Shown piece by piece: positions 16,171 to 52,574 of a stretch of DNA of 64,000 nt. The stretch comes from Rhea pennata (lineage: Eukaryota; Chordata; Aves; Rheiformes; Rheidae), in contig NC_084669.1 in assembly GCF_028389875.1 (NCBI RefSeq), forward strand, positions 30,554,567 to 30,618,566, written 5' to 3'. Both the position numbers and the translations under genes were made by a program. The notes under the pieces are model-generated. The model had not been told where the DNA came from. It saw nothing but the letters and a program-made list of their open reading frames with translations, and ran no database searches. Position 1 is the stretch's first letter. Every line of letters begins with the position of its first letter.

Positions 16171-16268
16171 TCACTGGCAAAAGCTTTTTCCCCAGGCAGT
16201 TGCTTGATTTGTTACATTTTTTACAGCTTTTTCACCAGTTTCAGCCACTTTGTTGACTTCATCAAGAG
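16171..16268 (-). CDS. FAM25A: FAM25-like exon 3
   Basis: The acceptor attttaaag precedes CTCTTGAT. With the carried-over G it encodes ALDEVNKVAETGEKAVKNV and continues to GKSFCQ-stop. It holds the Trp, the only aromatic residue in the C-terminal half apart from a Phe. Confidence 0.85.
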
Positions 16269-19200
16269 CTTTAAAATAGGAAAAAGGTAACTGTAGCATC
16301 CCTGTAATATGTTCCCCTCTCCCACTAGCAGTGAGTGGCAGGGACACTAGATGGGAAAGGGATGGGAAGCAGGAGAACCGGAGGAGTCTGTGTTGTAGCA
16401 CAGTCTCTGCACAGGTGGCTAAAGCGGCCTCGGTCGCTTTTCGCAGGTCAGCCCTGGCCCCGCAGCACGGCTGTGTGAGCTGAGGGGCTGTGCGCGACGC
16501 GGGTGTGCTGCTCGCTCCCAGCGTCTGCAGGCACCGTGGGCACCACGCGGTCTTGGGCCCAGAGGCATCGCAGCAAAGTGCTTGGCAGCCTCTTGCAAGA
16601 TGATGGGTGCTAGGAGGGAGGCGGGAAGGGAAGGGGACGACCCGTCTGGGATTTCACTGAAGTGACAGGATTGAAATAACGAGAAGTATTACTGTACCTT
16701 TCTGACCAGCTTCCTTAGCCTGTTCCACTACTTGCTGCACAGTCTGGCCCGCTGTGTTAACTGGAATTTTAGGAAAAGAAGTGTAAAATAAACAGTCTTT
16801 ACCCTTCCCCAAACTCAGTAATTACATTTCAGGAGGGATCCCTAAATGTTTCAGAACAACAAGAGGAAAAACTATTCCTTAAGAATGGGCACTTTGATGC
16901 AATAGAAGGGAGCTGCTATTAGGAATTTGGTTGTAGTTCCCCACTTTACCATGTAGTTTAGTATAGACTAAGATTATGGAAGTTATTTGCATCATTAAGG
17001 TGATGCAAATAAGGAAATAAGCCCTAATGGAGATTCAGATGCAATGGCCTTTCCTTTTACTGAAACCAGACAGGTTCTGCAGAGACCCGTCTCAGGCAGC
17101 TTTGTTGGGAAAGAGTCTCCCACCAGCTGCATTAAGCTTGCTGCTTGCTGTCTGGAAGTGCCATGCTAGGACCAGCACATGGAAACTTAATGTTCAGTCT
17201 AATATTTTCTCTTTTAGCCATAAAAAAATTATTCCTTAAGAGACCAAAGTAGTTGTAAAGATGTGGAGGAAATGTCCAGCAGAGGAGACACGGTGATGGC
17301 ATGAACAGTAAAATATAAACCTGTCTTAAAGGAGAGGAACTGCAGCCATAGAAAATACTAATAAAAGTGGGTATTCTGCCTCCAACAGCTATGACCAGGG
17401 AAGCCTGTCTTGCAAGAGCTGGTCAAGGAAAGATTGGGTAAAGGGCCTTCAGCTAAACCTGTGTTTGTTTTATTCACCCTGCCTCCAGTTAGGGCCTTCT
17501 GTTCTGCACATCAGCCACTGAAGGGTGGCCTGCCTGAACATACTGCGAGACCAGCGGCTCATGAAATAGGATGTGAGCGCTGCATACGTGACAAATGCTG
17601 AAGGAGGACAGCGTTTAATGGACTGGGAGCGTCTAAAGCTTCCAAGTCCCCCAGGCTGGTGCTGAATGGCTCTTCAGCAAGAGCTGCTTCATAAGGGCTG
17701 CCTCGTAAACCAGTGGCCTGTCTCACCATGGGTTGTAAGACACTTTTTACAGCTTAGTCGCTGCATTAATTGTCATCATGCATCACCTTTTGATGTAGCT
17801 TACTAATTGGTGAATAGTATATGCATGGGCAAGGAAAATGCCGTTTCTAGTGCTGTAAATTTATGGCTGTCTGGCCTTTTTGGAGCTCTGGGTTAGGTGC
17901 TAATTTTAGACACTTGGCAAAGACGGGTTGTGCCATTCTCAGCACAGCAGTTGCTCATGGGACTAAGCCTCAGGGCATACGCAGGCACCATGGAAGTAGT
18001 TTAGCGACTATATAATTAACAATTGCAGATCACCAGTTGACAAGTCTTGCTCTAGCTTAAAAACTGGCACAAGCCTCTCCTTTGTCTTATGCTAAACAGG
18101 GATTTGGAGGGTACCTCCATTTCTAGCGCTCCCAGGGTTGTGTGCCATGCTGGAAGCGCAGTTGCAGGCATCCAGCATCATGGGCCGTTTATTTACTAAT
18201 GACGTGCAAATCCCATAGGCAGCGCTCAGTGGAGTCAGCAGAAAGCCTCCTACGTATGTGCTATTATCCTTGGAAAGAGAAGAGACCCCACAGCTCAGGC
18301 CCCGTCGTCACCCATGGGTGGCAGAAGCGAAGCCAGTGCCTGGGAGCTTGGCTACTGTTTCGGGTCCCAGCACCAGCCAGGAGAGGTGCCGGTGGCTGCA
18401 GAACCGGGTCAGGTTCGAGCACCTGCGGAAAAGGGGAAGGACTGCTGCTACTAAACTTGTCTCTTGAAGTTTGTTGACTCTTAAACAGTTCAGTAGGCTG
18501 AGAAAACTACACTGAGGAAACTACTCAGCTCCTGTAAGATGGCAAACTCCACTTCTAAAACCCACACATGCGTCTTCTAGCATAAGAAACATAGATAATG
18601 TTCCTTAACATAAAAAAGGAATATAAAAAAAACCTCCACAAAATATGCCTTTCTAGGGCTGCTGTACAGCAATGCAAAAAGAGAAAATCTTTTTTTTTCC
18701 TCTCTTTCTTTTTTTTTTAAAGTGGTTACCTGTAACTGCCAAAGGCCTGTTGTTTGTTTTTCCTCAAAGCTTCAGCATAAAAATGGTTAAATTAAGAATT
18801 CACCCCAAATCTTTGGAAAAGGGGGCAGTGGGTGTGTGATTTGGGGTCTTTTGTCTTTCCAGGCAAGGATAACAGTAAATAAGTAGGAGGCTTTCACTTA
18901 TAACATTAAGTAAGGCCTATTGGATTTGCACATCAGCAAAAAGTAGAATATACACAAACAGGCAAGCAGGTGCTCAGCAGAAGTCCCATTAGTAACATTT
19001 CTGCTTCATTTGAGGTCACTGACAAAATGCCTGGTTTCAAGAGTTTTAACCAATAAGTTGTGTAAAGGAATAGGAAACACTCTCAACTACTCATATATTA
19101 CACTAAGCACATGCAGATGTTTCAGGAATTGCATCAGTTAAAAAAAAATCTCTTGTCTGTGTTAAAGCTTCATTAGCAATGGCTCATCTAAATGGCATGT

Positions 19201-19927
19201 TATTTAAATTCAGGACAGATTCTCAGAGTGCCTCAGCAGGAGTGAGCTGCTCCTGTGACTACACTTAGGCTTTTGGTGGAATAAGTGCCTCCAAATATTG
19301 GCTGGGCTAGAGCACTAACAGCAAACAGGAGCTACCTGCAGATGTGCTTGTGTGGGTCCAAGCTGGCAGACGACTTCAGGGAACTGATTACACTGCTACA
19401 TATGCTCATAATTACCATGACTACTTGTATTTATAGCTTTAATTTTGTATTTGTATATATGTATTTATATATATATATATATTTATATTGTATTTATATA
19501 GAGAGAGAGCTGAGAGGGGAGGCTGAATATATCTTCAGGCTCACCTCCCCTCTCAGCTTTCTGCTGAGCCCTCGTCTCTTCCGTGCATCACCTGGACACC
19601 CACACAGTAAAAGCCAGAGTGGGAAACTAGTAGTTAATATCGGTCCCTCCTTTACTATAGCACTAGAGGTTTTTAAGCTTAACAAGACAGACTCCAGACC
19701 ACACTCCGGAGGAGAACAGCTATAAAGTAGAGTTAATGCATAAGAGCAATTTGCTCCAAGCTGCCAGACAAAAGCCTACTGGGGCTGGGAGCAAAGTATA
19801 TGTCTTTTAAACACCTAAAAGAAAGCATCATGAGGAAAAGCAGTGGTTTGTATTTACCTGCCACCTGGGCAGCATGTTCAGCTTGTTGCGTCGCTTCCTC
19901 GGCAAGTTTCTTCCCTATCCCAAACAT
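16171..19927 (-). CDS. FAM25A: FAM25-like short amphipathic-helix protein
   Basis: Three exons (19,858-19,927; 16,698-16,760; 16,171-16,268) join in phase 1 and phase 1 to give 76 residues. It starts MFGIGKKLAEEATQQ and ends AWGKSFCQ. The body is Ala/Gln/Lys/Glu/Val-rich with hydrophobic residues every three to four positions, and a near-repeat of EAGQKALDEV by ETGEKAVKNV. No signal peptide, membrane segment or catalytic motif is seen. QQVVEQAKEAGQK resembles human FAM25A (VVKEVVGHAKETGEK) and human ADIRF (QQVVDQATEAGQK). The N-terminus resembles FAM25A (MLGGLGKLAAEG). Human order is SNCG-ADIRF-(AGAP11)-FAM25A-GLUD1, so its position next to GLUD1 supports FAM25. It is shorter than recalled human FAM25A (89 residues). 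The molecular function is unknown. It could instead be called a second ADIRF copy. Confidence 0.85.
16698..16760 (-). CDS. FAM25A: FAM25-like exon 2
   Basis: This exon is 63 bases, exactly the length of ADIRF exon 2. It encodes VNTAGQTVQQVVEQAKEAGQ plus Lys. The acceptor is aattccag and the donor is gtacag. It is too short to stand out as an open frame and was found by matching phase and composition. Confidence 0.87.
19446..19500. repeat. TA-rich microsatellite
   Basis: An irregular run of tatatt and (ta)n units within FAM25-like intron 1. It abuts a GAGAGA run and the inverted repeat that follows. Confidence 0.85.
19508..19558. repeat. 15-bp inverted repeat (hairpin)
   Basis: The left arm agctgagaggggagg (19,508-19,522) is matched exactly by cctcccctctcagct (19,544-19,558). 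A further ctga/tcag pairing is possible past a 5-base bulge. It is intronic and purine/pyrimidine-asymmetric. Confidence 0.9.
19858..19927 (-). CDS. FAM25A: FAM25-like exon 1 with start codon
   Basis: This exon encodes MFGIGKKLAEEATQQAEHAA then QVA plus one base. The start is the first ATG downstream of the predicted TATA-driven start site and has a purine (A) at -3 and T at +4. The donor is gtaaat. Confidence 0.87.
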
Positions 19928-20013
19928 GGTTGCTTTCTGCCTTCTCTCCTGGTGGACGATGGGCGAGTGAATCCTAAATTTGGTCCTGTTACGATGTTCT
20001 CCAAAGTGCAGCT

Positions 20014-20020
20014 TTTTATA
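20014..20020 (-). promoter_or_regulatory. FAM25A: TATA box of the FAM25-like gene
   Basis: The minus strand reads ctcTATAAAAAGCTGCAC, 87 bases upstream of the ATG. It predicts a start site near 19,985-19,990 and an untranslated leader of about 60 bases. Confidence 0.75.
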
Positions 20021-23919: not shown

Positions 23920-23925
23920 TTTATT
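23920..23925 (-). promoter_or_regulatory. ADIRF: ADIRF polyadenylation signal AATAAA
   Basis: This is the nearest canonical AATAAA I found on the minus strand after the ADIRF stop, about 440 bases downstream. An ATTAAA variant lies nearer, around 24,285-24,290. Confidence 0.5.
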
Positions 23926-24364
23926 TAACATAGAAACACAACATATTGGAGTAAATGAACAATTGACATGAAATATAACACCGACAACTTTGGATTACTG
24001 GAAGAAAGCTTAGTTTCATAATGTGAGTGTTCTGGTGTGCTGGGGTATTACTAGTTTCGGTATTTCTGTAAGTATACTCAACGAATGTGGCAATAATTAT
24101 TGTGTTATTGAAAGAGCAGGGCAATAACATTGCTGAAAACTTTTGATCCATTTTGAACAGAACATTGTGAACAGATGATACAAGATGTGCTAAAATACAT
24201 ATTTTTCCTACACAAAGGATAAGGAGGGCATTCTGTCCTAAAATGATGTATTTAGAGAGAAAGTTATCCATATCTCAAATAGCTTTAATTTTTCTACACA
24301 AAGGCATAGGGAACTGCAGAAGAAAGATGCATTTTACATACAGTACTGTTTGCTTAAGTTATTA

Positions 24365-24471
24365 TCATTTCTTAAATCCAAAATTTTTCCCCAAGCCAGC
24401 CATTGCTTCTGTAGCTTGTCCAGTTGCTTTTTCTACACCATCTTGAGCTGTCTTGCAAGCCTGATCAATAG
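24365..24471 (-). CDS. ADIRF: ADIRF exon 3
   Basis: With the carried-over G it reads AIDQACKTAQDGVEKATGQ, continuing to GLGKNFGFKK-stop. The acceptor is ctctttcag. DQACKTAQDGVEKATGQAT aligns with human DQLAKTTQETIDKTANQAS without a gap. Confidence 0.93.
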
Positions 24472-27400
24472 CTGAAAGAGAGGGAAAAATTTAACAGCTA
24501 AGCAAAAAACTTGAAAAATGCAACATCGTTAATATTTATGATGGGAAGGAGAGGTGAGAAAATGACTAGACTATCCCTATAAAAATATGGAGATACAGCT
24601 TAAAAGGAGGTTCTCTACAACTGGTTATTATTGGGTTTGGCAGCACATGTTTAGCATGAGCTGTAGCGTACTGTTAAACGGGAGAAGTTCCTTGGGAATA
24701 CTGGGTCCTGAGTTGAGGTGTTACTAGATAAATAACAGGACGAAGCTGATGAAGACACTGGCACTGCACGAGGTTAGTACGGGGGTAAGCACAGGCTGGC
24801 TGATGGAGGGCAGTGCTCCGGGCTAAGAAGCGCTGTGAGGTCTGGCAGGCACAGCTGTCTCCGTGTGACACGGCAGGCAAAGAGACGCCATCTCCTCTGT
24901 CCCCTTCTCTCGAGTTCGCGCATTCGAGGAGCTGCCAGGCTGAGCGGGCAGCGAGGCTCCCGGGAGCGGTGAGGCCAGAGCAGCTGGGCTGCCCTGTGCT
25001 TGCAGGAGTGCCCAGCACCCGAAGGGGAAACCAGGATACCGGTGTCCAGGGGAGGCAGCAGGCACAAATCCGCAGACCCTCTCCCTTTCTTCCAGAGTTT
25101 CTCTTCCCTGGGATCTCTGCTATATTTTGGCAGTTTTGTTGCAAAATCCTTCCTCATCTAGTGTTAATGAATGTAAAATCCTTTCCTGCTTGTCACATCC
25201 ATGAAGTCAAGAGAGGCATCTCCTTTGAGGGGATACTGCTGTTACATTCTGGCTTCATTCAACATGAACCCAAAGTTGCTAATTCTCCCCTCATTCTTAG
25301 AAAACAATTAAAATCGAGTGAGAACTGAACTGAGTTTTTAATTTAACTTGCCAGTTCCCTACCATCAGAAATGAAATACCAAAACTTTCTTCCCAACACC
25401 TTTTATAGCTTCCAGCATCATTAACGATTGACCTCAGCTGCTGCCTCAGCAGGTGCGCAGGGCAGACGTAGGGTTAAATTTGGCGGACTCCTGCCCTCAG
25501 GGCAGGAGAAATCAAGACGTAGTGTATGTTTACTTAATCTTCAAGAAAGAAGAGCAAAGTTTTGCCTGCACTGTTCCAAGAGCTCTTCCACAAAGGCAGC
25601 CAAAATCCGAGCATAACGCTGAGCGTAATGCAGGAGACATGGGCGGGGAGGGGGGGGGGTCAGCTACTGCAGTACATCTGCCAGTAAAGGCATGGAGCAA
25701 CTAAAGGGCAGCTCCTGACATCCTATCATGTGACTTTTGTGAAAAGTCAAAGTTTGTCACTAAAAACAGTGGATGTTCAGCCCCAAAACATGCAGGGGAG
25801 AAAGGGGAAACGAGCATTGATGTTACTTGTTTGCATTAAGTTGCTCGATCTCTTGTTGATTTGAGCATAATTTCCTCATACCTTTCTGGCTCGTTTCCAC
25901 AACCTGGTTGATTGCATCCTGAGTAGCCTGTCCCAATGTATTTGCTGTAATTAAATACAAAAGATCCATTTTCATCTGCTCACATTTATTTTCTCCTTCC
26001 CTCCGATTCTGTTAAGTGCTATAAACTCGTATAAATTCCTTACGTCAACAGGCATTTCTGCATGCATTTTGCTCCTGGGCTCCCTCTGAAGCATGCCTAC
26101 TGCCAGAGCAGCTGCAGGCAGCTGGGCACATTGCTGACAGGTAAGAAGACCAAAAGGAAGGAGATAAAGAAGCAAAGATCAGCAGCCAATTTTAATACTG
26201 ACTTATAGCTGCAGATTGCTTATTTTATACTACTTTTGCTTTTATCAATTTATATAGCTTATTCTGTTTGGAGATGTTTAGCAATCCAGCATGCATCTTC
26301 TTTGCAGGCCATTTGGAAGTAGTGCCTTTTTCAAAATAAAAGGAAAAATGCATTAAATAGAGTAGGACAGGAAGAGGGAGATTTTACAAAGAAGATTTAA
26401 ATAGATGTTCAGAGAAAGAGAAGCTGAAACCATAATGGAACATTAAGTACTAAAAAGAGTGAGATGCCATTTAAAATGTGGGATGTTCCACAGTTTATGA
26501 AAGAGTGGCAGACATTCTATTACTTTTGCTAGAAGAATAGCTCTGAAATGACCCCTCAACGGCATGAACACATTTAGGATGCAGCAAGAACTATTTTGTT
26601 TTTCAGAAAGGATTACTGTCATAGTTCTGGGTCTACTACATATTGGTCCTAGATGTACAAAAACTTGCAGCAGCTTCAAAGAAATCAGTGAGGTTACTCA
26701 CGTTCTTCAGTTACACAACGAAGTGTTTGGAAAGGATCAGAAATCTAGGACTGCATCCAAGACAAGTTATAGCCTGCTAGGAATGATCTGCACACAAGCA
26801 TTGTAATGAATATATTATAAAGTGCTAGAATAAACTAAACATATCTGGAAATTTTTCATTTAAAGGAAAAGCTATTATACCTTGCATTGAAAAATTAGTT
26901 TCCGGCATACGCAGTTTTTTTTAAGCCCTGCAAAATCTGGTAATCAGTGATAGGGAAGAACACAACAGAAATATATTTGTATTACTTATTATAAGCAGTC
27001 CATTTTAATCAATAGTTATTACAGGAATGCATTGCTATTCAAGCCAAGCAGTAAATAGGTTAATAAAAGGTTCAATCCAACTTCTTAAAAGGAGAATAGT
27101 CTAAAAAAAATTGCAAAGCATGAAAAAAAACACAATAACCTTTAAAAACAGAGTCAAATATATGGATTGCCAAATGTAAAAGGTTGTTACTGTCAGAAAA
27201 GGCCCCAATACTTTAAAAATATACAGTTTAAAGAATCGGTTCAGGAGCTATCCAGGTTGAGCTACGTTCAGCGAGCACTGAACGAGCTCTGGGTGGGTGA
27301 AGGGGGCTGACGGCGCAGAGCCAAGGTCTGTGGCAAGACAGAGGCATCGTTCCAAGTCGGGGTCTTCTTCAGGCAATGGCCCATCTGTGGCCCCCAGGAT

Positions 27401-27730
27401 GGGTGGAAAAGGAGCAGCACTGGGGGCTCGGCACGGCGGTGCTGGCTGCCTGCCGGGGGCTGGTGCGGGCTTGACCTGTCCTTGGTGTGGGTTTGCCCAC
27501 AAAAATCCTTCAAGATCTGTATTTTCCAAGCCTCAAATTACAGCTGTTGTTAACCAGGGATAAAGTAGCCCCACTGAACTTAGTGTAAATTCAGATTTTG
27601 GTTTGTGAAAGCAAAAGCAGACACTAGGCTCTCCTATAAATATATACAAAGATATTTAATCTTTCTTACCAGCATCTTTTGCTGCACCTTCTGCCTGTTG
27701 CTTCAGTCCCTGGAAGCTCTTACTTGACAT
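24365..27730 (-). CDS. ADIRF: Adipogenesis regulatory factor
   Basis: Three exons (27,670-27,730; 25,882-25,944; 24,365-24,471), joined in phase 1 and phase 1, encode 76 residues. That is the same length as human ADIRF as recalled. The start MSSKSFQGLKQQAEGAA aligns with human MASKSLQDLKQQVEGTA, and the end GLGKNFGFKK with GIGKKFGLLK. In mammals ADIRF (APM2/C10orf116) is a small, mostly nuclear adipose-enriched protein linked to PPARG and CEBPA expression. Nothing in the sequence shows a catalytic or DNA-binding fold; it reads as one long amphipathic helix rich in Ala, Gln and Lys. One Cys lies at residue 47. It lies between the FAM25-like gene and SNCG on the same strand, as expected from synteny, and has its own TATA box. 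Confidence 0.93.
24472..25881 (-). other. ADIRF: ADIRF intron 2
   Basis: Holds a GC-rich block (about 24,770-25,080) and a poly-G tract at 25,641-25,659 with potential to form a G-quadruplex. A minus-strand TATAAAAGG lies at 25,399-25,407, inside the transcribed region. Long open frames across the GC-rich block occur on both strands and match nothing I know. Confidence 0.7.
25882..25944 (-). CDS. ADIRF: ADIRF exon 2
   Basis: This exon of 63 bases encodes ANTLGQATQDAINQVVETSQ plus Lys. The acceptor is ttaattacag and the donor is gtatga. Its length, both splice phases and the VVExxQK end match the FAM25-like exon 2. Confidence 0.93.
27670..27730 (-). CDS. ADIRF: ADIRF exon 1 with start codon
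   Basis: Encodes MSSKSFQGLKQQAEGAAKDA plus one base. The start codon has C at -3 and T at +4. It was chosen because it reproduces the known N-terminus and is the first ATG after the TATA box. The donor is gtaaga. Confidence 0.93.
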
Positions 27731-27830
27731 AGTTGCTTTTGACACCTTTTAACTGTCGTCCACTTCAGTTAAAATAAAACATCTGGCAATGCAGAGCACA
27801 CTGTGAGAGGGGTGTCCTGACCTGTCCTGT

Positions 27831-27837
27831 TTTTATA
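27831..27837 (-). promoter_or_regulatory. ADIRF: ADIRF TATA box
   Basis: The minus strand reads agctgTATAAAAACAGGACAGG, about 100 bases before the ATG. It predicts a start site near 27,805. A TATA box fits the strongly regulated, tissue-restricted expression known for the mammalian gene. Confidence 0.75.
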
Positions 27838-36386: not shown

Positions 36387-36407
36387 CTAATTGCCTTCAA
36401 TTCCACC
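36387..36407 (-). CDS. SNCG: SNCG exon 5, last six codons
   Basis: After a strong pyrimidine tract (cctttctcttttcatag) the frame reads GGIEGN-stop in phase 0, matching the phase-0 donor of exon 4. Human SNCG also ends in a tiny exon (AQSGGD). It was identified by phase and position rather than by clear identity, so it could be another small exon nearby. Confidence 0.62.
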   Translation of the reverse strand, partial: GGIEGN

Positions 36408-39400
36408 CTATGAAAAGAGAAAGGCAAGAAAATAGATGAATATTTTCAGTGGAAAATATATATAAAATTATATCAGGAAAAAAAAACAATGGCAGTCACC
36501 ACATTAAAAATCATAAACAACAGCATAACAATAAAGACTGTACATTGTGCAGAAAACTGATGAATTATCCGTTCCCTCTGAGAATCAGACATTTATCTAG
36601 TCTAACACAGGTCTCTAGTGAAAATGAGGGTGTGATTTCAGTGTGTTAAGTGGAACTGAGATGAACTGCTGTCAACAGGAGCATCCTGCTTTCTGCTGCC
36701 ATGCGATTCTCCCTACCAGACACACACCCTGATATTGCACTTGTGCAGCCATAAGATCAGTAGCGTGCGTTTTCCAGACACACACGTGCCAGCACTGGCA
36801 CACAAGAGGCTATGGCTGGCAGAGGGTAGTAAGCCTTTTGGAAGCTCTAGGTACTGAAAACGCAACCCGAGTTTCAGAGAGGCTGCAAACTGAGGAGTAT
36901 GGGTGCTCACATTAGTGAGGGGTGCTGCAAAGAAGCAGCCAAAGGTCTGCTTGAGAATGTTTGTCTATTCAAAATGTCCATGTTGGGCAAAGAGGATTCT
37001 ACCTTCCTCATTCAAGAGCTGAAACTGGCCCAGAGACTGACACTCAACTCAGGGTTTTAAAAGGATATTGCAGCTAGAAAAAAGCAAAAAATTAAACTAA
37101 TTTAAATATAGAAAAATCTAACTTGTGTTAGCTCTTCTGAAAGAAAAACTATTTCAAGTGATGATTAAAACAAAAAAAACAAAACAAAAAAAAAAAAAAA
37201 AAAAGAGAGAGAGAAAGAGAGAGAACACAAATGTGACCGTTTACACTTCAAAATCAGCCAAAACCAAACAGCAGGTTAGAATCTGGCACATCTGTTGCTC
37301 ATGGCAACCCCTTGGACCTAAAAAGGGAAGTGGCAAAACCCTGAGAATCCCCGGGCTCAGATTTTGTCAGATATTTAACAAAAATGGCAATACTCTGGCT
37401 TTATGGGCAGCAGATCTCAAATCTCCAATGTACAGAAAGCAGAGGGAAATTTTTTTTTCTAGGAAAAAACATGAACACAAAAAAGACCATGGGCTACCTT
37501 CATGACTGAGGGACATCCAGGCTGTGGCTTCACCTTACCTCTCCGCTGCCTTCTGTGCCTTGCACTGCTTCTCCTGCCACCCCCGGCTGCTCAGGCTGCT
37601 GTGGCTGAGCCAGATCCTCCTGCCAAGTCACAAGGGGTAAGGTTGACCTTACAATCACAGGCAGAGTCATGGCCCTAATCTTAGACAGGCTACTTGCGTA
37701 GACCATGCAAAATGGGTTGGAACATTACATATGCAACTAAAATAGCAGGTATAATGCATGGTAAATATTGCTCTGAATCAATTTTTTTGTGCAGTTGGTT
37801 AGAGCAAATGTTTATAAAAGTGCAATTCAATTTCTTATACCCTCTTTTAGGTTCCTTTTTTTCATATGGAGAACTAGTTCTTTCTTTGAAATTTTCTTTT
37901 GCATTACCCAGTCCAAACGGAATTTTGACTCTTTCAGAGTGCAGAAACTTAGGAGGAATAAATACATTTTATTTTACCCGAAGTAAGGTAGATTATACAT
38001 AGCCTTTCAACACTTTATGTTCTTTGCAGTAAGCACTAATTTCACAGACTAATACTAATTTCATATACAGCAATATCATAGTGACTTTAATGTCATGCCT
38101 CAAATAAAATTTCACTATCAAAGGATAAGTTTTCATTTGTATTTAAAGTCCAAGCATTTTCATAAGCACCTTGAGCTCTTTTAGCTGCTTCCCCACATCT
38201 TTTAGCTACTGTGTTATTCAACGAAAAAGAGAAAAAATGCATTATTTACTACGAGGCAATTACTTTAAACATGTTTTTTTTCACATGGGCAGAGAAGACA
38301 TATGCTGGATATGCACACTGGATGCAGATAAAGCAAAAATGAACCTTTATGGAATCTGGGGTCATCTGTGAGACCAGGAGGAAGCAGAAATAGCAAGACG
38401 TCTAGAGTTCATCCCCAGCATATGAGGAAATGCAAATAGTATTACTGGCCTTCTCTCTTCTCTTTAAGCCCACATGCCCAGCAGCATCCCTTAATTTTTA
38501 ATCCGATTTCCCATATAAAATCAGGCCACCACAAAAGGAGGATGAGAGATATAGATTATATGAAGGGGAAAACTTGATTTTGAATAGAATGCAGACATAT
38601 CATTTGAATTTCAGTACTTTGGAAGCATGGAGCTACCCCTTTCCTAGTGCCACTGCTAACAGTGCAAATCAATTGTTCAGGTAAAATCTACTATAAAAAG
38701 AATTTTATGATCAGTGTGTTTTGGAGAACTCTATCTGAGATTTATGGGGAGATTACTTTAATCTGTGAGAAATCATACGTGCACCGTTTTGACATTAGGA
38801 GACTCTGTAAAGAAATATCTAATGAAGAAAATATGTGAAACCTGCATGGGTCTCATAGATCTTTGGAGGGGAGGGGAAGGAAATTCTACGATTCTATGAA
38901 AAGAAGGGAGCTTCCTTCAACATCCTCAGGCTCTATGATTCCTCAGTAATGCTTCATGCCACAAACAGACGGAGTCCAGCTGTACAACTACAAATATTTT
39001 CCTCTGCTCTTCAATGGTGAATATGCATTGTTAAAAGGGCGAGGTAGAAGAGCTTTTTAGGACAGAACCTGGACGAAAACCTTACTAAATACTCTTCATT
39101 TTCACATGTGTCCTTAGTTTCCTGTCCAATCAAAACTCTTCATCAGCAGGACAACAAAACTGAAGAAGAACTGGGAAGAAATGACATCAAACAAATAGGA
39201 CAAAAACAGGCATATATCACAAACACTCAAATATATAAATATAAGCTAGATTCCATGGGAATTTAAATTCCTAATTGGACTTCATTTTTAATAGGAAGGG
39301 GAACTAGGAAAGTGGTTTGCAGTCTATTTGTCCTACTATAGATTTGCTGCTCTCTATGCAAATTACAGTAATAGATCAATCCACCAAGAAATAAAATTGC

Positions 39401-42400: not shown

Positions 42401-42700
42401 GGTTCATATTCCAAATATGCAGTTGTTATGAAAATGATAACCTAAACTACTGGTACGGTGCACATGCATAGAAATGATGAGGTCATTTCAGATAACTGAA
42501 AACTGCTGAAATAATTAATTGTATGAAATAAAAAAAGATCAAAATTAATTTAAAATGACAGAACTGTGACTGACAACTAAATCATATAAAAACTGACAGG
42601 ACAAATGGATCTAAATGGAAGATCTAGGTGGAGGGCAAGAGAAGAATAATTATAGAGGAGTATCAGCTACTTGGAAAATTCCTCTAGTCCCTGAGGTGCA

Positions 42701-42740
<40 letters not shown>

Positions 42741-45700
42741 ATGCACACACACTTCTTCCCTACCACGTGGTGTCTGCAATGCAGCAAACTTTATGCTGTG
42801 TCATGTAGATGAAAAATTAATCCTATTCTAAGACAGGGATATTTAATGTGTGGTTATCTCACTGAAATTACTTAATGTCCACTCCAGTGACTGAGATGCA
42901 TGTAGAGCTACAGATCAAACACTACTGATAGTTATCATTCTTTGTATAGTGGAAAAAACATGGAGGGTTTATTAGCTTTTAATTTATGTATTTTTACTTA
43001 GTGCGTAAAACCTCCTCTAAAACAGTCAATTATTTCTTGTACTCAGTTAGCCAATGACAAAGTTCTACCAAGCGATGTCAGTGCTAATCAAGGCCGTGCA
43101 CATCTGGTGCCTGGCACCCCTCTTTTAGTGCAGAGCTATTTCAATTGCATTTTCTTCTGCCTGTATCGGAGTGCTCTCACTGAGGAGAGCAGGGAGCAGA
43201 AGGGGCTTGTCCAGCAGGGTGACAACTGCCCTATATGTATACCTGTTTCAGTATCTGTCATCTTAAGTGGAAAGCTGAATTATTCCAATGCTACAACACT
43301 CTCATAGGCCGAAATCGCTATTTGCTATACTCATGTAGCTCAATCACCCCATAGCTGTAAGCCCAGAGCAAAATTTAATCCAGAATCTTTAAAGTTCTCT
43401 GCTCATTGCTAGTATACATCTTTCACTGATACCCGCTGTCAAACACACAGATTAAATGTCAACAAGCTCTCTGTAATTGATATTAATACTAGGAACAGCA
43501 AGCTGAGAACATGCATCCTACGACATTCTAATACCCAGATTCAGGTCCTTCTGTAGCACTGCTCCCTGTTCACCATGTATTTACAAGATGCCCCAGCACT
43601 TTGAACAACCCCTCTATAAAGTCGACACTACGACTACGACTACTATCGACACTACGAGTAATTGACAACAGAAATTAAGCAACTGCTCTTTGCAATTAAA
43701 AAGGAGGATGACCAGATGGAGCATAAACAAGGCTCAGGACTGTATGTAACAACTATCTCAAACTTCAGGGAAGAAATTCAGGGAAGTTGGAGAGCTTATG
43801 TAGGATTGGAAGGGTTTAATATCATCTATTTATTTTTTTAAACAGGTAAGCGCTATACCTTTTCAGTCTTCTCAGTATACTTCCAACATGCCTCTCTATG
43901 TGCTACAGCTCCAGACACTGCCATCGGCAGCCTCTGGCTGTGTGTCCATTAACAAATTGTGCAGCACAACAGGAGTGGATCTGGAGAGGAAGCAGCTGGT
44001 GCTGAGAAGTGGCACAGCATTATTCCTTTAGGACTCTCCCTGCCGACCGGCCCTGGTGCCACGGACACTATCCCCTGAGCAGAGGGGATGTATTAGGCAG
44101 GCGCTTGGAGCAAGTCATCTGCTTTGGTGCCACCCAGAAGGAATCCAGTTCACACATTCTGAGACCACTCTCTGTCGTGAATCGAAGTATGGCGAGTGAG
44201 GATGACTGGAAGATTTGTACTCCTGACCTAAACTATAATGCTAGGGCAGATGGCCCCCCTCTCTCACTGACAGTAATGTTTTTCCTGAACTATCTTCTCC
44301 TGTGACTTCTTTTGCTTTGTTTTTCTCCTCCTGTTTTTCAGTCTGCTGCCCATCTCTGCCTTTACAGTTTCCTAGCTCCCTCATTCCTATGTCTGCCATT
44401 TGACCTATCACACATCCCACATTTTTTTCCTTCTTGACCAGTCCCCATTTTAATTTTAAGTGGAATGACATTAACAGAAGATGTCAGAATGACAGTTCAG
44501 ATGCTTAATCCTGTAACCCTCTAGAAAACTCATAGCTTCTGTGAATTGCCTGCAGTATGCATAATCCAGAACCATTACTAGGATGAAGGAATAGCTGATT
44601 TTCTATGGGACTCTCTGCAGCAGGATAGAAATAGATAGAGCAAATCAGCTAGAGGTGCAAAATTAACACTGCTAAGCTTTAGCTGATCAAAGCTAAAGAG
44701 CAGGGGCTTTAATTTATAACTAAAAGGAAAGCACATTGCTGCTGCTCAGTCCATGACCAAAGTGGGGATGGTTCAGTTTATGGGTGATGGGTTCATACCA
44801 TCAGCAAATTCCCAGCTTTCCTGGAGAGACTACCCCTGAGCTGGTCAGTCAAAAGGTACAAGAGGGTAGTCTATCCCCACTGAATGAGAAATCACTGTTT
44901 GCACTCCTGCAAACCAACTGTCCTTCCCTATGGCAATAAAGATTAATCTTATCCCAAGGGCTTAGCAGATCTTCTATATCTGCCCTTTTTACATGTTTTC
45001 AAGAGGACATTTTGCATCACTCATAGTTGCTGTTCTCCTGCTTTGTTAGACTATTCTCTCAGGATTTATAGTGTGTGTAGAAGTTTTGTTTCACATCACA
45101 ATGTGTTTACTGTTAGGTCAGGAAATTCATCAGCCAACTGTCTGAACAATTAAACAATTTTGGCCAGCCTCACTTCGCTTTCATTCCGGGTTTGGGTTTT
45201 GTGACTAATCCAGCTCACGTCACTATCAGCTCTATTGACTATGACCCTCTAAAGATGCGGAACAAAAACAAGTTTACCAAAGAACTGCCAAATATTTGCC
45301 TCTAGAATAGCCTCATGTACAGTACAAATGGTTGCTATTTACTATCATATGGTGAAAATACCTTGGCTAATGGTCAATTTTGCTTTCAGCCAAGGAATCG
45401 TTCTGCTCCTCTACATGCCCTTCATCCACTAAGTCGAACCAACTCAGTTCACCACATTATATTTGAGGACAGAAGATTTAATTCTGGCTTAATCAATGCT
45501 TTATTTGGGTCACATGGCCTTTATCAAAGGTTGTTGTCAAAATCAGCCCAATTAGAACACAAGATTAGACTTTTTGGAGTCTCCTATGGGACCACACTCT
45601 TCTGAGCCATACCGAGTTGTCTGAATTAATGCTGCCACCTACTGCTGACAAAACTGATGGTCCTGGTAGGGAAATAACTCTGCATTTCCATTCCAGGGGA

Positions 45701-48700
45701 TGGAAATTAGTAGAGAGGATAGGTGGTAAATATGAAATTTCAAAATACACCTCAAAGCGCTCTGTTGTAAAGATGCTGACTAGGTGGGAATATAACCACT
45801 GACATCCCCCCCCTTTTTTTTCATATCCCAACACATTCTGGCGCTTTGTCTCCTGCCAGACTTTTCACTTCAGTTTTTCTTACTTCTACTCAAGTCCATG
45901 AAAACCTTGCTTTTTTACATTAAAAAAGAACAGGAAAAAGACAAATTTGTTTTAAAATTAAAAAAAACTGTCTGTCCTGAAAAATTGCTATAACACAAAG
46001 GACAGTGTCCTCCAAATAAAAATACTAATCTTTAAGATCTTGATACAAACTTGTCTTGATGTTTGTAAGGGCATGCACTCCTTTACACTTTGAGGAAGTT
46101 CACATTTGGAGTCAGATGTAAACCAAATTTTATAGCAAAAAAACCCAAAAAACAAAAAACAAACAAACAAAAAAAACCAACTAATGTTTTAAGACCTCTC
46201 AGAATTTTAAAGTTTAAAGTAACTCCAAGTATATTGTATTTTCTCTCCTTTGTCTTTGGTGCTTAGAGTATCAGACTGCTTCTGAATAGTTTCATTTACT
46301 GCTATATCTACATAGAGTATGGCAGGAGACAGTGCTATTACCTTTAACAGCTGTTAATAACAACTACAATTAAAAGCATTATATATTAAACATATATTAA
46401 ACATTATATATTAACAGATATTGTTGAAACCATCAACTGTAAACATTTCCAAATATTTTAAGATGTGTAATACAAGCAAGACTTTTCTACAGGCTGCTGA
46501 AGAAACAAACTTACCTTTTTTATAACTCCTGTAGTGGCCACAATGGTCTCTGCTCCTTCTACGGTCTTGTTTGCCACTGTGTTCACGCTGGCTACTACAG
46601 CTTCTCCCACAACATTGGCCTGCTCTTTGGTCTTCTCAGCAACTAGGATTTCAACAAGAGAAAGTCAATGAACTCAGTATTGCCAACAGGCTCCCAAATC
46701 TGGGACAATATAATGATTGCACCAAACTAAGAATAAATTGGCTCAGGTATAGTCCTTATTTGGATTTTCTATGTGACAGCACATCTGAATTTAGATCATG
46801 TACATGACGGTTTTGTCTCACTCAAAATGCTGTCCAGGGGAACGCAGACACTGCAGCCTGTCAGTCTTCATGGGCAACTGAAAAACTCAGTGCAAGGGGC
46901 TAAGAGACAACTGTGCAAATAAAGCATTTTGCAATGTAGACTCTGTATGGCCTCCCCCCAAGTACCTGCTATGTGTCCCTTCTATATAAGTTAATAGATC
47001 TAGGCAGAAAGAAAAATCAGTCATGAAATTTCCTAAGGAAGGGATCCATTCATATCTGTTCAGGGTAGTCCGTGTGGTGGACCAGCCTTAGAGCTTGTGG
47101 ATCCTAGGCTGGTCCTGTAGGGTCCCTGACTCTGTGACAGGCTGACAGGAGGCTCCTGAAAACTAAGGCTTTGGCCCAACAGGAAATGATGCAAGTAAAG
47201 CCTCTCTGCATTCTGGACTGAACTCTTGACTTTATGAGATGTCTAAATCACTGTCAATCAGTAGAGCCTGCCAATAACATTTGTTAGATTTCTTTTGATC
47301 TGCTCCTCTGATTAAATATTTTCTCCCATCCACATGCACTGCAAGTGCCAGACCCTGACCCACTGCTCCTGGCAAGCAACTTTCATTCATCAAACAAAGG
47401 CCACGTGGACAGTGCTGCCTCCAAAAGGCCTCCCATTTGGCAGGAGTTATGGCCTTATCAAGAGGTTCAACAATTCACTATCGCCTTCCACATCTCTCTC
47501 GGGTTTTTGCTCTTACCTGAAGTCACACTATGCACTACGCCCTCCTTGGTTTTGGCACCTGTGAAAGCAAGCATATAGTCCATCAGCGTTATCTAGAAAA
47601 GAGTGCGTTGGTTTCTGGACCTGGATAGCTTTCCGTCCTTACAAGGTGTAGTGGGGGCTCCTGGTGCAGTTGGCACCTCCTGGAAGGAAGGGAGAACCTC
47701 TATTCCTACAGCTCGCAGAAGGGACCAGCTTCTCCTCCCACAGAAGTCAACAAGAACTTTTTTTGCTAGGAGTTGGATAACCTCAACCATGCATTGCTTG
47801 GACACGCCTGCACTTGAAAAATCTTGATTATTATGTGTTTAAGAAAGATTGTCTCTGGAATATTTCCAAAATTAGAACAACAGGTAAGCACAGGTAAATC
47901 AATGTCAGGTTAATTGTAAAAATGAACATATATTAAATGACCAGGTAAAATCTCACTATTTCAGCTTTTTAAAACATGGAGTCACCTCTTTGACTCCCTC
48001 CTGCCTTTCAGCAGAACATTTGGCCGCAGTACTCATTTAAGGCTTCTTTCTGTACACTTAATAGAGTCTAGAGAGGTTTGAGGCTGAATGTGCAAAACAA
48101 ACCCACCCACCTGCTACATGACACTGCATTCCCATTTCAGTGCTTAAGTCCAGGTTGTAAATGACTGCTTATAGCAATAAAGAGAATGCAATTGTTTCTA
48201 TTTAAAATTATGAAAATATACCATACATACCATTACATTGTAATTTACCTCAGTGTTCTCAAAGCACAAAAGCTAATGGGATGTGAGGCCATTTAGTCCA
48301 CAACAAAACTAGCCCTTAAGGAATAATAAGTAATCTCTGCAGTTCTTCTCTAAGCTTGAGATGACTTGCTATACCTCCCTTCTAATTGCATACTGCAGCA
48401 CATGCGTTATGTTAAATCATGTGGTAGATGGGAAGTCCCTACATTAACTACATGCTTTCACATTAGAAAAAGAAGAAATCTGTCTTTGTCAAAAGTTGAA
48501 GAAATATACTCTAAAGGTTCTCCTTCAATGGTTCCATCCTACTTTAATCTGTAAATCATGTACACATCTATATAGCCTCTTTTGCAGTTTTCATACCAGT
48601 ACAACAAAAAAAGACAGATTTTTATGGCCAACTTTCAAAGTGATAGAAATACAGAATCAGTCAGGTGCAGATGTACTGGAACATCCATGGTGTAATGGGA

Positions 48701-51700
48701 GAAGTTAGCTACAAACCACACCTAATTCTCATTAAAGCCTTAAAAAGCAAAACAAGTGCAGCACTCTGATAACAACCGATAGGGTAAAACAAAGCTGTCC
48801 TACTACAATATGCCCTAAACATTTCACTCCACCCTCCTGAATTGTGTATCCCAAAGAGATGAAATCCTTGTATTTTTTAGTTGTTGCAGCTATAAACTGC
48901 ATTTAATAATGACATACATGGCATGTATGTGCACTGCTGTAAGATGGATTTAATAATGATACATTTAAGTGTGTGTACAGAAGCATATTAGTAAGCATAC
49001 CAGATATGTCATGAGTTTAAGTCCCAGAACTGCCCAAATACACAAGTTTAAATTCAGATGTGATCCTGCTTCAATTTCTCCCCTTCCTCCAAGTGCCATC
49101 CCAACAGTTCATCTGGTTCCAGCACAACGTTCTCACGTTGTATTGATGTGACATGCAGTATCTTCTCATACCAGACACAGTGGTTCAAGCTTAGCCCTGC
49201 TTTGTTGCTTCTTAGTCAGAGTAATTCTAAGGTAAATCACTCACATGTGTTTCAATTTTGAAGTAAACTTCTTAAGTGAGACAAGAAATATACTTGTATC
49301 ATTTATATATATATTTTTACCAGGCTTTTTATCGAAGGTGATTATCTGGCCTTGACTCTTTTCCAGGGAGGTATTTTTAAAATGGACAGTAATTCAAAAA
49401 AAGAGGGATGCACATACAAGAAAAATATCTGAATATGTTTCATGACAGAAACAGAAGCAATAGCAGTAGGAAAAGCCACTGTCTGCAGCTTCAGTGCTTG
49501 CCTCATCTTTCTAAAACACTCCCATGACCACACCCAATGACTCAGACTTCTGCATTCGTTATGCACCATACAAAATCTGACCTTCCAGTAGATACCCTTG
49601 CTGGCCACCAGCATCTGTTGCATCAGCAAGCCATCATCTGATGCTCAGTCTCACTGTTACTCACTGTTAGTCTTTGCCTGCAGCTCATGTACTAAGAGCT
49701 AAAAATTCATACATCCTGCCTCTTCTGCTAAAGGAGTATCTGAGTGCTGTGCAACATCCATTAGAGCTCTGTATTTTGACAGGGGTTAGAGGTGGCGAAG
49801 CACTGTGCACTGGGGAAAGATTCATAGTAGAAAAGACTATAATGTGCAGTAATCTTGCAGGAGTACTTGCTGGAGTCACTTCTTAAGTAGAGCTTAGTGT
49901 GTTGCGGCTTTTTGAGACATGCTTGACAGTGAGTGATTCTTCCTGATTTGTAATATTAAATAGTGTTAATGACTTTATACTCAGTTCTGTGACTGATGAG
50001 GATTTTTCCTTTGTCTTGGTGATACCTCTGATGCAACGCTGCATTAACTTCCTCATCACTTATGCCCGTATTTAAACCAAATTAAAAAAATAGACGACAG
50101 AATTACTTGCTGGATACACATCAGCTGTGCAAGAATCCACTGCACCTTCTGCCTAGCCAAAGACACACACTCCCTCTCCCTCTCCCCATGCACTCCCTCT
50201 CTCCCTCCCTCTCTCTCTCTCTCCATACACTCTCTTCCCTTCCCTGCACCTCAGCAAGCCAGCCAGGGGCTACTACATTCCTATGGTCCCCTCCATGGTG
50301 GCAGCACCTTGAACCAGCCTAGCTAAACCACACTGCAGTGTTAGCATAGGCAAGAGGCATCTCAGGCACTGGCACAAGCTGTGGGAACTGTAGCTGCCTG
50401 GCTCAAGGAGGAGAGAAGGTGGCAGCAGAGCCCCAACGGCACAGCCAGCTCCAGACAGATGCTTCGGAAGGAGTATTCATTCCCTGGGGCTGCAGTGAGC
50501 AACTGACCAGGTTTGGTGGCTGTGCCTGGCCCTCAGTGAGCCCCATGAGCACTTTTTCTCCCTCCTTTCTTAACTTTATGAAAAGACCTTCAAGCTTCAA
50601 TGCAACTATTATTTTTGCCTAGCATTAGAAAACTCAGATTGCTTCACCTAACAGCCAAAATAACCTGTTGGGATAGGGCTATCCAAAGGGAGGAATAGTG
50701 AAAGAATAGTTCATTTCTTTAATTAACACCTTATGTGGCACAGAGCGAGGAAAAGTGGCACAGACAACTTACTAGTCCTACCAGTTTTAATGCACAAACC
50801 TGATCTCCACTTTCTTTGCTCATTTAAAATCAGTTCTATGAGATAATCAGCATCTGGCATTCACTTTTTCCTTTCTGTAAAAGGCTGAATGTTCCCAAAG
50901 GGCTGAGCATCTGCCCCCTACCCCCCTCACATGCAGTAGAAGCTGAGAACCAGCAGAATCAGTCCCAATACAAAGCGCTATCCAAAGCACTGTATGACTG
51001 GGTGGGAATTGGTGGTACTCCTAACAAAAAGGATGGGTGGGTGGAGGGGTAAATACTTCATCTTTAGCTTGATCCTTACCCAGTGATTTATATTTTAAAC
51101 GCTTTCAGAAAACCTTATTGAAAAGGTCAGAATGTGAGCAGACTACTTCAACCTCATGGCCACACAAAATGGAAAACAGGTCATAGGCTGAAGATGTAAA
51201 ACGTTACTGAAAAGAGATAGGAGAAATTATGTAAAAAATGCTGAATGATCCCTTCTGACATTGCTTAAATGAGGAAGCAGTTGCAGCAGCAATGCCACCA
51301 TCTGACACCTAGACATGAAGTTTCACAGGCTAGTGTTTCAAATACTGCTATTGGTCGAATTATTTCCAGGGATGCTGTTTACTTTTTTGCTCATGAGTCA
51401 GCTCTAAATTGAAACGTGAGCTGTAATATCTCATGAAGAGTACCTTCAGTTAACAAGCCAATAAAATTGAGATGAAGACATTAGTAAATTTGCTAAACAC
51501 AAAATCTGTATTCATTTGTAATTTTAAAATGTGTATCTGTAACTACCATCCATATAGATGTTTTAAACATGGTAGCTACATGCAGCTGTGGATGTTGTAA
51601 CATAATGGCAGTAAGAATCCGTGTGAAAACTTTCCTACTGAAGAATATAAATAAAAATCTTTCTCATATAAACATAAAAGACAAAAAGCTGTAAAAGATG

Positions 51701-52574
51701 CAGTAATCAGTACACAGCTAGTCAGTCTTGGGAATCTAAGACTTTATAGAGTCTACAGGATCTAGAATATCTGACCACCCAGCCACATAATTGTATGAAC
51801 TAGGGAAAACACCAGGTTTCAAGTGCAACCCTTAAACAGGGGTTTTCTGAAACAGAATATTAATTGCTAGAGAGATTTTTAGACAGGACATATGTGCTGT
51901 TATCCAGAATCTATCTTTTGGGCAAAATGAATTTAGGTGTCTCTTGTAAAGCAAGATCTATGTGTGTATGGGGCATAAAACAAGTCAGTAAGCAGGAAAA
52001 AGAGCTTAGGATAAAATGGCATGTTTGTGGAAAACAGGTATGTCCTACAATCCCCACTGAATAACAGTGTTCATTACTCTCAGGGACCTCACTCACTGTG
52101 CTTCCAACAGTGCTGAGGTGAAGGAGATCATCAGTGCACCGGAGAGTTGAGTGACTCAGCCTGAAAACAAGCAGTGAATAATCATAACACAAAACTTCCA
52201 CCTGAGCATCTGCTTGTTAACATTACATTAATTCTGCCTCCTATGAAGTATAGCCAGTTGCTATTTCCAATTTACAGTTCAGGAAACTGAGGCACAGAGA
52301 GGCTATAGCATCCCAGGCTTAACACAGTAAATCTGTAACAGAGCTAAGGACATGATCTAGAACTCCTGTCACTACATAATTTTGCCAGACTTTCTCAAAG
52401 AAAATCTGTATTACAGTTCATGCTCAAATATTGATTGAAAATATTTCTCTTACCTACATACATCACACCCTCTTTGGTCTTCTCTGCAGCCTCTGTCACT
52501 CCCTGCTTGGTCTTTTCTGCAGCAGCCACCACACCTTCTTTAGCAATGGAGAAACCTTTCTTAAACACATCCAT
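36387..52574 (-). CDS. SNCG: Gamma-synuclein
   Basis: Five coding exons (52,454-52,574; 47,517-47,558; 46,515-46,642; 37,539-37,619; 36,387-36,407) encode 130 residues; human has 127. The N-terminus [16 protein letters not shown] is diagnostic of SNCG. Imperfect 11-residue KTKEGV-type repeats fill residues 1-60: AKEGV, TKQGV, TKEGV, TKEGV and TKEQA. The mid region [20 protein letters not shown] is the gamma counterpart of the NAC segment. The tail [12 protein letters not shown]... is less acidic than mammalian tails. Synucleins are cytosolic and presynaptic, fold into an amphipathic helix on acidic membranes, and gamma is enriched in peripheral and retinal neurons. Exon 2 is 42 bases, as in mammals. 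The gene spans about 16 kb because intron 3 is about 8.9 kb; the human gene is only a few kb. Confidence 0.96.
37186..37224. repeat. A19 plus (GA)n purine tract
   Basis: A run of A passes into gagaga units on the plus strand, between SNCG exons 4 and 5. In gene orientation it is a long pyrimidine tract, but no AG acceptor with an open frame follows it. Confidence 0.9.
37539..37619 (-). CDS. SNCG: SNCG exon 4, C-terminal tail
   Basis: Acceptor gacttggcag, then [18 protein letters not shown] and VQGTEGSGE, donor gtaagg. EDL directly after the VIKK end of exon 3 is the mammalian junction (RKEDL). The tail is Gln/Pro/Gly-rich with only seven acidic residues in 27, fewer than in mammals. Confidence 0.9.
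38093..38208 (-). other. Candidate terminal exon inside SNCG intron 3
   Basis: Pyrimidine tract ttttttctctttttcg, acceptor aacacag, then an open frame to a tga stop. With a carried-over G it reads [19 protein letters not shown] followed by a polar, non-helical end. The entry phase equals that of FAM25 and ADIRF exon 3 and of SNCG exon 3. Joined to SNCG exon 2 it would replace exon 3; joined to exon 3 it stops at once. It may be chance. Confidence 0.3.
42705..42752. repeat. (GT)17 microsatellite ending in a palindrome
   Basis: Seventeen GT units run straight into GCATGC and (AC)4. The last 22 bases form a perfect alternating purine-pyrimidine palindrome, a classic Z-DNA-prone or cruciform-prone arrangement. 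Confidence 0.95.
43621..43660. repeat. Short CpG-bearing direct repeat
   Basis: The 12-mer tcgacactacga occurs at 43,622 and again at 43,646 (24-base period), with gactac repeats between. It concentrates several CpGs in an otherwise CpG-poor intron. Confidence 0.85.
45117..45605 (+). other. Unexplained open stretch with one internal stop
   Basis: It begins directly after a ttactgttag acceptor-like site. One frame is open for 62 codons ([20 protein letters not shown]...), has a single tag, then stays open for about 99 more codons to a tga. I recognise no family. It lies antisense in SNCG intron 3. It may be a decayed gene piece or chance. Confidence 0.2.
46515..46642 (-). CDS. SNCG: SNCG exon 3
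   Basis: With the carried-over G it encodes [20 protein letters not shown] and continues [23 protein letters not shown]. It enters in phase 1 and leaves in phase 0. It holds the hydrophobic core region that corresponds to the aggregation-prone NAC of alpha-synuclein. The acceptor is atcctag and the donor is gtaagt. Confidence 0.97.
47079..47115. repeat. 10-bp inverted repeat
   Basis: ggaccagcct and aggctggtcc are exact reverse complements separated by 17 bases, in SNCG intron 2. A modest hairpin with no evident role. Confidence 0.85.
47517..47558 (-). CDS. SNCG: SNCG exon 2
   Basis: This exon of 42 bases encodes [14 protein letters not shown] with the flanking split codons, one full 11-residue synuclein repeat. 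It is phase 1 on both sides. The length is identical to exon 2 in mammalian synucleins. Confidence 0.97.
50166..50236. repeat. CT-rich low-complexity tract
   Basis: Runs of ctccctctcc and ctctctctct with few purines, in SNCG intron 1. The mirror-like polypyrimidine strand could form triplex structures. No coding content. Confidence 0.9.
52225..52375 (-). mobile_element. MIR (CORE-SINE) copy
   Basis: The run ttcaggaaactgaggcacag followed by agaggctatag matches the MIR core in reverse orientation. The preceding cctatgaagtat...atttacag and the following taacagagctaaggac also fit. It lies in SNCG intron 1, about 80 bases inside the exon 1 donor. MIRs amplified before the bird-mammal split or near it, and recognisable copies are scarce in bird genomes, so good preservation is notable. 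Confidence 0.75.
52454..52574 (-). CDS. SNCG: SNCG first coding exon
   Basis: This exon of 40 codons plus one base runs from [20 protein letters not shown] to KTKEGVMYV. The start codon has a purine at -3 and G at +4, a strong context. The donor is gtaaga, phase 1. [10 protein letters not shown] differs from recalled human VGAVEKTKQG. Confidence 0.97.

Follow-up and report, generated by a model that had tools for sequence, protein, structure and literature searches.

Two neighbouring genes in the genome of Rhea pennata, encoding ADIRF and a FAM25-like protein, are clearly tandem copies of one three-exon ancestral gene, as demonstrated by homologous sequences and matching intron positions. It is likely, in our judgement, that both copies encode 3-11 helices that fold on lipid, and that the gamma-synuclein gene SNCG, of the Parkinson's family and in the same locus, is an analogue next door. 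An initial annotation had proposed that all three genes constitute one tandem family. The pairing of FAM25-like with ADIRF as paralogues is upheld by our analysis, but the inclusion of synuclein as a third member is unsupported, given that shuffles preserving the helix design explain the likeness.

Gene models of the locus

The window is the entire 64,000-nucleotide stretch of DNA that was analysed. The genes FAM25-like, ADIRF and SNCG lie on the minus strand, adjoining GLUD1, and the earlier description of three neighbours on one strand, including its gene models, was correct. Their coding exons are as follows.

16171..16268, minus strand, FAM25-like exon 3, 98 nt including the stop codon
16698..16760, minus strand, FAM25-like exon 2, 63 nt, phase 1-1
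19858..19927, minus strand, FAM25-like exon 1, 70 nt coding, ends in phase 1
24365..24471, minus strand, ADIRF exon 3, 107 nt including the stop codon
25882..25944, minus strand, ADIRF exon 2, 63 nt, phase 1-1
27670..27730, minus strand, ADIRF exon 1, 61 nt coding, ends in phase 1
37128..37136, minus strand, possible coding part of SNCG exon 5, two codons and a stop, read by eye
37540..37620, minus strand, probable SNCG exon 4, 81 nt, encoding the first part of the tail
46515..46642, minus strand, SNCG exon 3, 128 nt, ends in phase 0
47517..47558, minus strand, SNCG exon 2, 42 nt, phase 1-1
52454..52574, minus strand, SNCG exon 1, 121 nt coding, ends in phase 1

As had been noted from the sequence, introns 1 and 2 of all three genes are in phase 1 (six of six introns), and the second exons measure 63, 63 and 42 bases. 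Each of these introns leaves a single codon base on its 5' side, and the splice sites are AG/GT. The reported range of 76 to 130 residues for the proteins holds at its lower end, where ADIRF and FAM25-like have 76 residues each, whereas SNCG has about 126 in the present model. The coding sequences of ADIRF and FAM25-like stop in exon 3, and neither protein carries an acidic C-terminal tail.

The Pfam synuclein model (PF01387) matches SNCG exons 1 to 3 with an E-value of 3.8e-51 and 173.3 bits, and this score rises to 187.7 bits when the probable exon 4 is included. The whole FAM25-like protein matches the Pfam FAM25 model (PF15825) with an E-value of 2.8e-7 and 31.1 bits, which passes the curated cut-off of 27. 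When all six frames of the window were scanned with HMMs of the family and of synuclein, only the known exons exceeded the threshold, and three other putative exon peptides had no Pfam matches at 0.001.

ADIRF and FAM25 as tandem paralogues

A BLASTP alignment of ADIRF with FAM25-like contains 28 identical residues among 62 (45%; E-value of 2e-12 for one comparison), and the codons split by both introns fall at the same aligned residues. When sequences were shuffled in a manner that keeps the helix angles, all four cross pairs between ADIRF and FAM25 proteins (from the window and from human) scored 4.6 to 8.7 SD higher than the shuffles. Profile alignment by hhalign gave a probability of 96.9% and an E-value of 1.4e-10.

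The assignment of each gene to the FAM25 family deserves some care. Human FAM25A scores 122.6 bits against PF15825, whereas ADIRF remains under the cut-off of 27 at 15.0 bits for the window protein (E-value of 0.03) and 18.8 bits for the human sequence (E-value of 0.002). Thus, ADIRF is homologous to FAM25 by pairwise and profile tests, but is best termed a FAM25 paralogue lying outside the current Pfam definition of the family. Because the FAM25-like protein scores almost equally against human ADIRF (128) and human FAM25A (119), its orthology to FAM25 rests on the Pfam match and on gene position. The sub-threshold Pfam scores of ADIRF are what might be expected if the two genes were unrelated and had merely converged on one type of helix. 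This explanation is strongly disfavoured, given the identical intron positions and phases, the extent of sequence identity, the margin over helix-keeping shuffles and the profile match.

A common helix design

The amphipathic character ascribed earlier to all three proteins is borne out by our analysis. At 98.18 degrees per residue, the hydrophobic moment of the whole protein exceeds that of shuffled sequences for three of three proteins (p of 0.000 to three decimals, from 1000 shuffles), and the mean moment in 22-residue windows at the same angle yields p values of 0.000, 0.000 and 0.003. Self-similarity at a spacing of 11 residues is also evident in all five proteins evaluated (p of 0.000 to 0.002 of 500 shuffles), two of which are human. 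Only SNCG and the two ADIRF proteins, from the window and from human, have 11 as their strongest period, and both FAM25 proteins peak at other periods. ADIRF and FAM25-like are short, proline-free chains with an 11-residue periodicity, and in a 3-11 helix each carries a weakly hydrophobic face down one side.

Chains of this type would probably be disordered in water, and might fold as helices on droplets, vesicles or membranes by analogy with synucleins and perilipins. Their neighbour SNCG shares this physical design. ADIRF is reported to be present in heat-stable lysate and is predicted to be disordered (PMC9692912). Counted against a lipid-helix explanation is the regulation of C/EBPa and PPARg, in which ADIRF is described as having a role (PMC6964862). 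The same helix design is described for LEA proteins, apolipoproteins and perilipin 4 (PMC6164224, PMC5889406), and there is no evidence that these proteins share descent with ADIRF and FAM25.

Synuclein as a probable analogue

Synuclein (PF01387, SNCG) resembles ADIRF and FAM25 in being a neighbouring gene with a phase 1-1 exon 2, 11-residue repeats and 3-11 amphipathic periodicity. It differs in the length of exon 2 (42 versus 63 nt), in having extra exons beyond exon 3, and in lacking any profile similarity beyond the helix design. The repeat units compared in the initial annotation (EKTKEGV in SNCG; EAGQKALDEV and ETGEKAVKNV in FAM25-like) are indeed present, but a likeness of this kind would be expected from a shared 11-residue helix.

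The profile comparison that had been proposed as a check does not place synuclein in the family. With shallow profiles built from four ADIRF/FAM25 sequences and two synucleins, hhalign returned a probability of 0.9%, which is below that of an unrelated LEA control (8.4%, only roughly comparable because this control is a single, longer sequence) and above that of apoA-I (0.1%). The two window proteins alone against SNCG gave 0.3%. Synuclein pairs do exceed plain composition shuffles (p of 0.001 to 0.056), and only 2.7% of 150 such shuffled profiles score as high. However, under helix-preserving shuffles all eight pairs of ADIRF/FAM25 with synuclein are only 0.3 to 1.8 SD higher, and 36% of 150 column shuffles that keep the register reach the observed profile score. 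SNCG is slightly ahead of LEA in three of four queries under the face-preserving null.

In BLASTP against SNCG, FAM25-like has an E-value of 6.8 and ADIRF an E-value of 0.096 for a single comparison. When the DNA of the three gene regions was compared, two short matches linked ADIRF with SNCG (E-value of 0.085), and neither of the other pairs gave a match. Outside the family, the open reading frame of the window that best fits the family HMM is SNCG exon 1, at an E-value of 2.2. PF01387 matched neither ADIRF nor FAM25-like at E-values up to 10, in a search where the filters of HMMER discard most hits with E-values over roughly 0.1. Three sequence searches of the PDB, one with a profile of the two proteins, one with ADIRF and one with FAM25-like, retrieved 7, 7 and 19 distinct chains at E-values up to 10, with synuclein absent and designed helical proteins as the best matches at most. 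A scan of viral contigs, where vertebrate genes are not expected, yielded 353 pattern matches, none of them confirmed as relatives.

Since the likeness is explained by shared helix design, SNCG is most sensibly regarded as an analogous neighbour. Because the similarity is about that of any protein with the same helix, a shared origin is unproven, though testable, and we regard common ancestry of ADIRF/FAM25 with synuclein as unlikely.

Intron positions and a seven-codon difference

A hint of kinship with synuclein survives in gene structure, where intron phases agree and second exons are seven codons apart. Phase 1 introns are common, and for this reason we reject intron phase alone as proof of kinship. 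A shared motif was likewise rejected as proof, given that the introns are at least four residues apart in the best local alignments.

A loss of seven residues from synuclein repeats 4-5, preceding the vertebrate genome duplications (before WGD1), has been postulated (2023; PMC10451939). Restoring seven codons to SNCG exon 2 converts 42 bases to exactly 63, the length in ADIRF and FAM25-like, and this lends some weight to the argument from phase and exon length, which is real yet weak by itself.

An ancient local duplication could account for this arithmetic, which goes unexplained by pure analogy. Under this proposal, the gene that duplicated was situated between MMRN and GLUD, had three exons and encoded a 3-11 helix of 11-residue repeats, and the event preceded the first vertebrate genome duplication. 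One of the copies would have turned into synuclein by shedding seven codons from an exon 2 of 63 bases and gaining acidic tail exons. The other would have become the ancestor of ADIRF and FAM25, relatives of synuclein that have no tail, and would have been lost in several lineages. The adjacency, strand and order of the genes and the uniform intron phases are in agreement with such an origin. Furthermore, with the seven codons restored, the repeat rotation is identical at both introns (9 and 9 for ADIRF; 6 and 6 for FAM25-like). The direction of the hydrophobic face measured from intron 1 is nearly equal (319 degrees for ADIRF and 318 for SNCG). Despite these features, we consider this history rather improbable. 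There is no sequence signal beyond the helix design, intron-anchored offsets rank from 5th to 43rd of 150 (12 tests), and the intron-anchored rotation ranks only 3rd to 4th of 11. The intron-2 rotation ranks better without the restored residues (2nd of 11 for ADIRF and 1st for FAM25-like). Moreover, zebrafish and lamprey are reported to lack ADIRF (PMC6964862), and the ancestral seven-gene block has SNC beside GLUD with no such gene named (PMC10451939).

That reported absence, together with the position of ADIRF and FAM25 beside SNCG only and the end of their coding sequences in exon 3, would fit a later duplication from SNCG in a bony-vertebrate lineage, after the genome duplications, followed by fast divergence and loss of the tail exons. 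Such a scenario is very improbable, because there is again no sequence signal, and exon 2, which is 42 nt in SNCG, would have needed to lengthen by exactly seven codons prior to the divergence of ADIRF from FAM25.

Implications

The classification of these genes bears on several statements in the literature. ADIRF is said to have no clear paralogs (2020; PMC6964862), but if ADIRF and FAM25 form one family, then it does have one. Mice, which are described as being without ADIRF (PMC6964862), would then retain a relative in Fam25c (alias Fam25a), a urothelial gene whose expression is strongly reduced or absent on removal of Pparg (PMC12045629). A link between ADIRF/FAM25 and synuclein is proposed nowhere in the titles and abstract openings of the open-access literature searched (one library). 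If synuclein did belong as well, the origin of the ancestral synuclein gene, which has been called mysterious (2023; PMC10451939), would be answered, and ADIRF and FAM25 would offer natural tail-less comparators for lipid binding by synuclein repeats. The typical tail is likewise described as missing from ASYN4, a synuclein of lamprey (PMC10451939).

ADIRF and FAM25 as paralogues

The genes considered here are modelled as follows.

Gene models in the window
19858-19927, 16698-16760, 16171-16268, minus strand: FAM25-like exons
27670-27730, 25882-25944, 24365-24471, minus strand: ADIRF exons
52454-52574, 47517-47558, 46515-46642, minus strand: exons 1-3 of SNCG, the gamma-synuclein gene
37540-37620, minus strand: probable exon 4 of SNCG
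5098-5289, plus strand: glutamate dehydrogenase ORF, GLUD1 (PF00208, 2e-10)

In our judgement, which is not a computed value, it is almost certain that ADIRF and FAM25 are paralogues. A single BLASTP comparison of ADIRF with the FAM25-like protein gives 28 identities over 62 residues (E 2e-12), and aligning the two proteins brings together the codons interrupted by intron 1 (FAM25-like residue 24, ADIRF residue 21) and those interrupted by intron 2 (residues 45 and 42). We also used a face-preserving null, in which residues exchange places only with others at a similar helix angle, such that composition and amphipathicity are kept. All four pairings of an ADIRF with a FAM25 protein (window and human sequences) lie 4.6 to 8.7 SD above it, and hhalign of the ADIRF pair against the FAM25 pair from the same sources returns 96.9% (E 1.4e-10). 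The name FAM25-like rests on the Pfam match (PF15825) and position, since the protein scores 119 against human FAM25A and 128 against human ADIRF. PMC6964862 describes a segment lost in mouse that encodes human ADIRF residues 1 to 42 and terms it the first exon; its extent agrees with the position of ADIRF intron 2 here. Of the single tandem family proposed by the initial annotation, the ADIRF/FAM25 part is supported; the inclusion of synuclein is not supported by the profile and shuffle tests described below.

Gene architecture and helix periodicity

As originally read, introns 1 and 2 are in phase 1 in all three genes (six of six introns), and exon 2 measures 63 nt in FAM25-like, 63 nt in ADIRF and 42 nt in SNCG. 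The amphipathic pattern is likewise borne out in all three proteins by the hydrophobic moment at 98.18 degrees (p 0.000 of 1000 shuffles). When seven angles are compared, ADIRF has its largest moment at 96 degrees per residue, and FAM25-like and SNCG have theirs at 98.18; both values are in the region of the 3-11 helix. Self-similarity at 11 residues exceeds shuffles in five of five proteins, and the strongest period is other than 11 in both FAM25 proteins.

ADIRF and FAM25 share this periodicity with other 3-11 helix proteins, as these are described in PMC6164224 and PMC5889406. By analogy, both chains would probably be disordered in water and would probably fold as helices on lipid surfaces, the lipid step being one that we infer for both. 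ADIRF has been detected in heat-stable keratinocyte lysate and is predicted to be disordered (PMC9692912).

Relationship to synuclein

Measured against the face-preserving null, the eight pairings of ADIRF or FAM25 with a synuclein exceed the mean by 0.3 to 1.8 SD (p 0.06-0.36), compared with 0.3 to 1.0 SD for four pairs with LEA and 0.0 to 2.4 SD for four pairs with apoA-I, both unrelated helix-protein controls; the highest apoA-I value belongs to FAM25-like. SNCG slightly exceeds LEA for three of four queries and alpha-synuclein does so for two, the second only by a tiny margin. With hhalign, the four-sequence ADIRF/FAM25 profile reaches 0.9% with synuclein (score 14.2), 0.1% with apoA-I (10.6) and 8.4% with LEA (21.1), a single longer sequence whose score is only roughly comparable with that of synuclein. 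The synuclein score is reached by 36% of 150 register-keeping column shuffles and by 2.7% of 150 full shuffles, and the two window proteins give 0.3% against SNCG. In the profile comparison, with shallow profiles, synuclein thus does no better than an unrelated helix protein, the outcome that the initial annotation had named as refuting its duplication proposal. Pfam searches at E up to 10, whose filters drop most weak matches, list no synuclein for ADIRF or FAM25-like; the weak matches are of human ADIRF to Apolipoprotein (0.002), window ADIRF to apolipophorin-III (0.036) and FAM25-like to a phasin model (0.015). Two results lean toward relatedness: the ADIRF/FAM25-synuclein pairs exceed plain shuffles (p 0.001 to 0.056), and among window ORFs outside the family, the one that the family HMM matches best is SNCG exon 1 (E 2.2). 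Taken together, these sequence comparisons do not show that synuclein belongs to the ADIRF/FAM25 family.

Homologous introns should align similar residues. Offsets anchored on introns rank 5th to 43rd of 150 (12 tests), and the 21 residues flanking introns come 19th to 58th among 73 placements. When the repeat rotation is anchored on the introns, it takes 3rd place of 11 for ADIRF with its human counterpart, and 4th for ADIRF alone and for FAM25-like. This rotation suits the helix: the hydrophobic face points to 319, 270 and 318 degrees from the intron-1 codon, and to 67, 10 and 15 degrees from the intron-2 codon, in ADIRF, FAM25-like and SNCG, respectively.

A loss of seven residues by all synucleins, at repeats 4 and 5 and before the first genome duplication, has been postulated by Marin from the repeats (PMC10451939). 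SNCG repeat lysines 43 and 58 are spaced by 15 instead of 22, and exon 2 encodes residues 41 to 55, such that most of this stretch falls inside it. Restoring seven codons makes SNCG exon 2 63 nt long, matching ADIRF and FAM25, and both introns then share one rotation (ADIRF 9 and 9, FAM25-like 6 and 6) that otherwise differs (9 and 2, 6 and 10). However, residue agreement also gives good support to the unrestored intron-2 rotations (ranked 2nd in ADIRF and 1st in FAM25-like), which counts against this reading. Given that two rotations would agree by chance about one time in eleven, we regard this agreement as a hint, not proof. The link between exon length and the postulated loss is our own and not that of PMC10451939, in whose main text a term search finds no ADIRF, FAM25 or adipogenesis. 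As to timing, a 42-nt ADIRF exon 2 would be expected if ADIRF had split off after the loss.

We consider it unlikely, again as a judgement rather than a calculation, that ADIRF/FAM25 and synuclein share an ancestor through an early or a late split. Adjacency, strand, intron phases and the seven-codon arithmetic speak for it. Against it stand the outcome of the sequence tests, the poor match of residues when introns serve as anchors, and the report that zebrafish and lamprey lack ADIRF (PMC6964862).

Genomic neighbourhood

The exon at 5098-5289 lies beyond FAM25-like and is convergent with the three genes. We name it GLUD1 from its PF00208 match and gene order; two further candidate exons had no match in a Pfam search at 0.001. 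Its presence here is in keeping with PMC10451939, which describes a conserved SNC-GLUD neighbourhood. The turkey order given in PMC7460020 is FAM35A, GLUD1, ADIRF, SNCG, MMRN2, BMPR1A, from which the window probably belongs to a bird or a near relation of birds. This list passes from GLUD1 to ADIRF and SNCG without FAM25 (here at 16171-19927), and thus the annotation of some bird genomes may omit this small gene or leave it without a name. In human, candidate targets taken from genome browsers include SNCG, MMRN2, ADIRF, AGAP11 and FAM25A (PMC5354744).

The probable SNCG tail (37128-37620) is short and only moderately acidic, with 27 residues in exon 4 and then two codons, which brings the modelled SNCG protein to about 126 residues. 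A simple GT/CA-type repeat at 42615-42812 appears as a VCVCVC translation among the listed ORFs.
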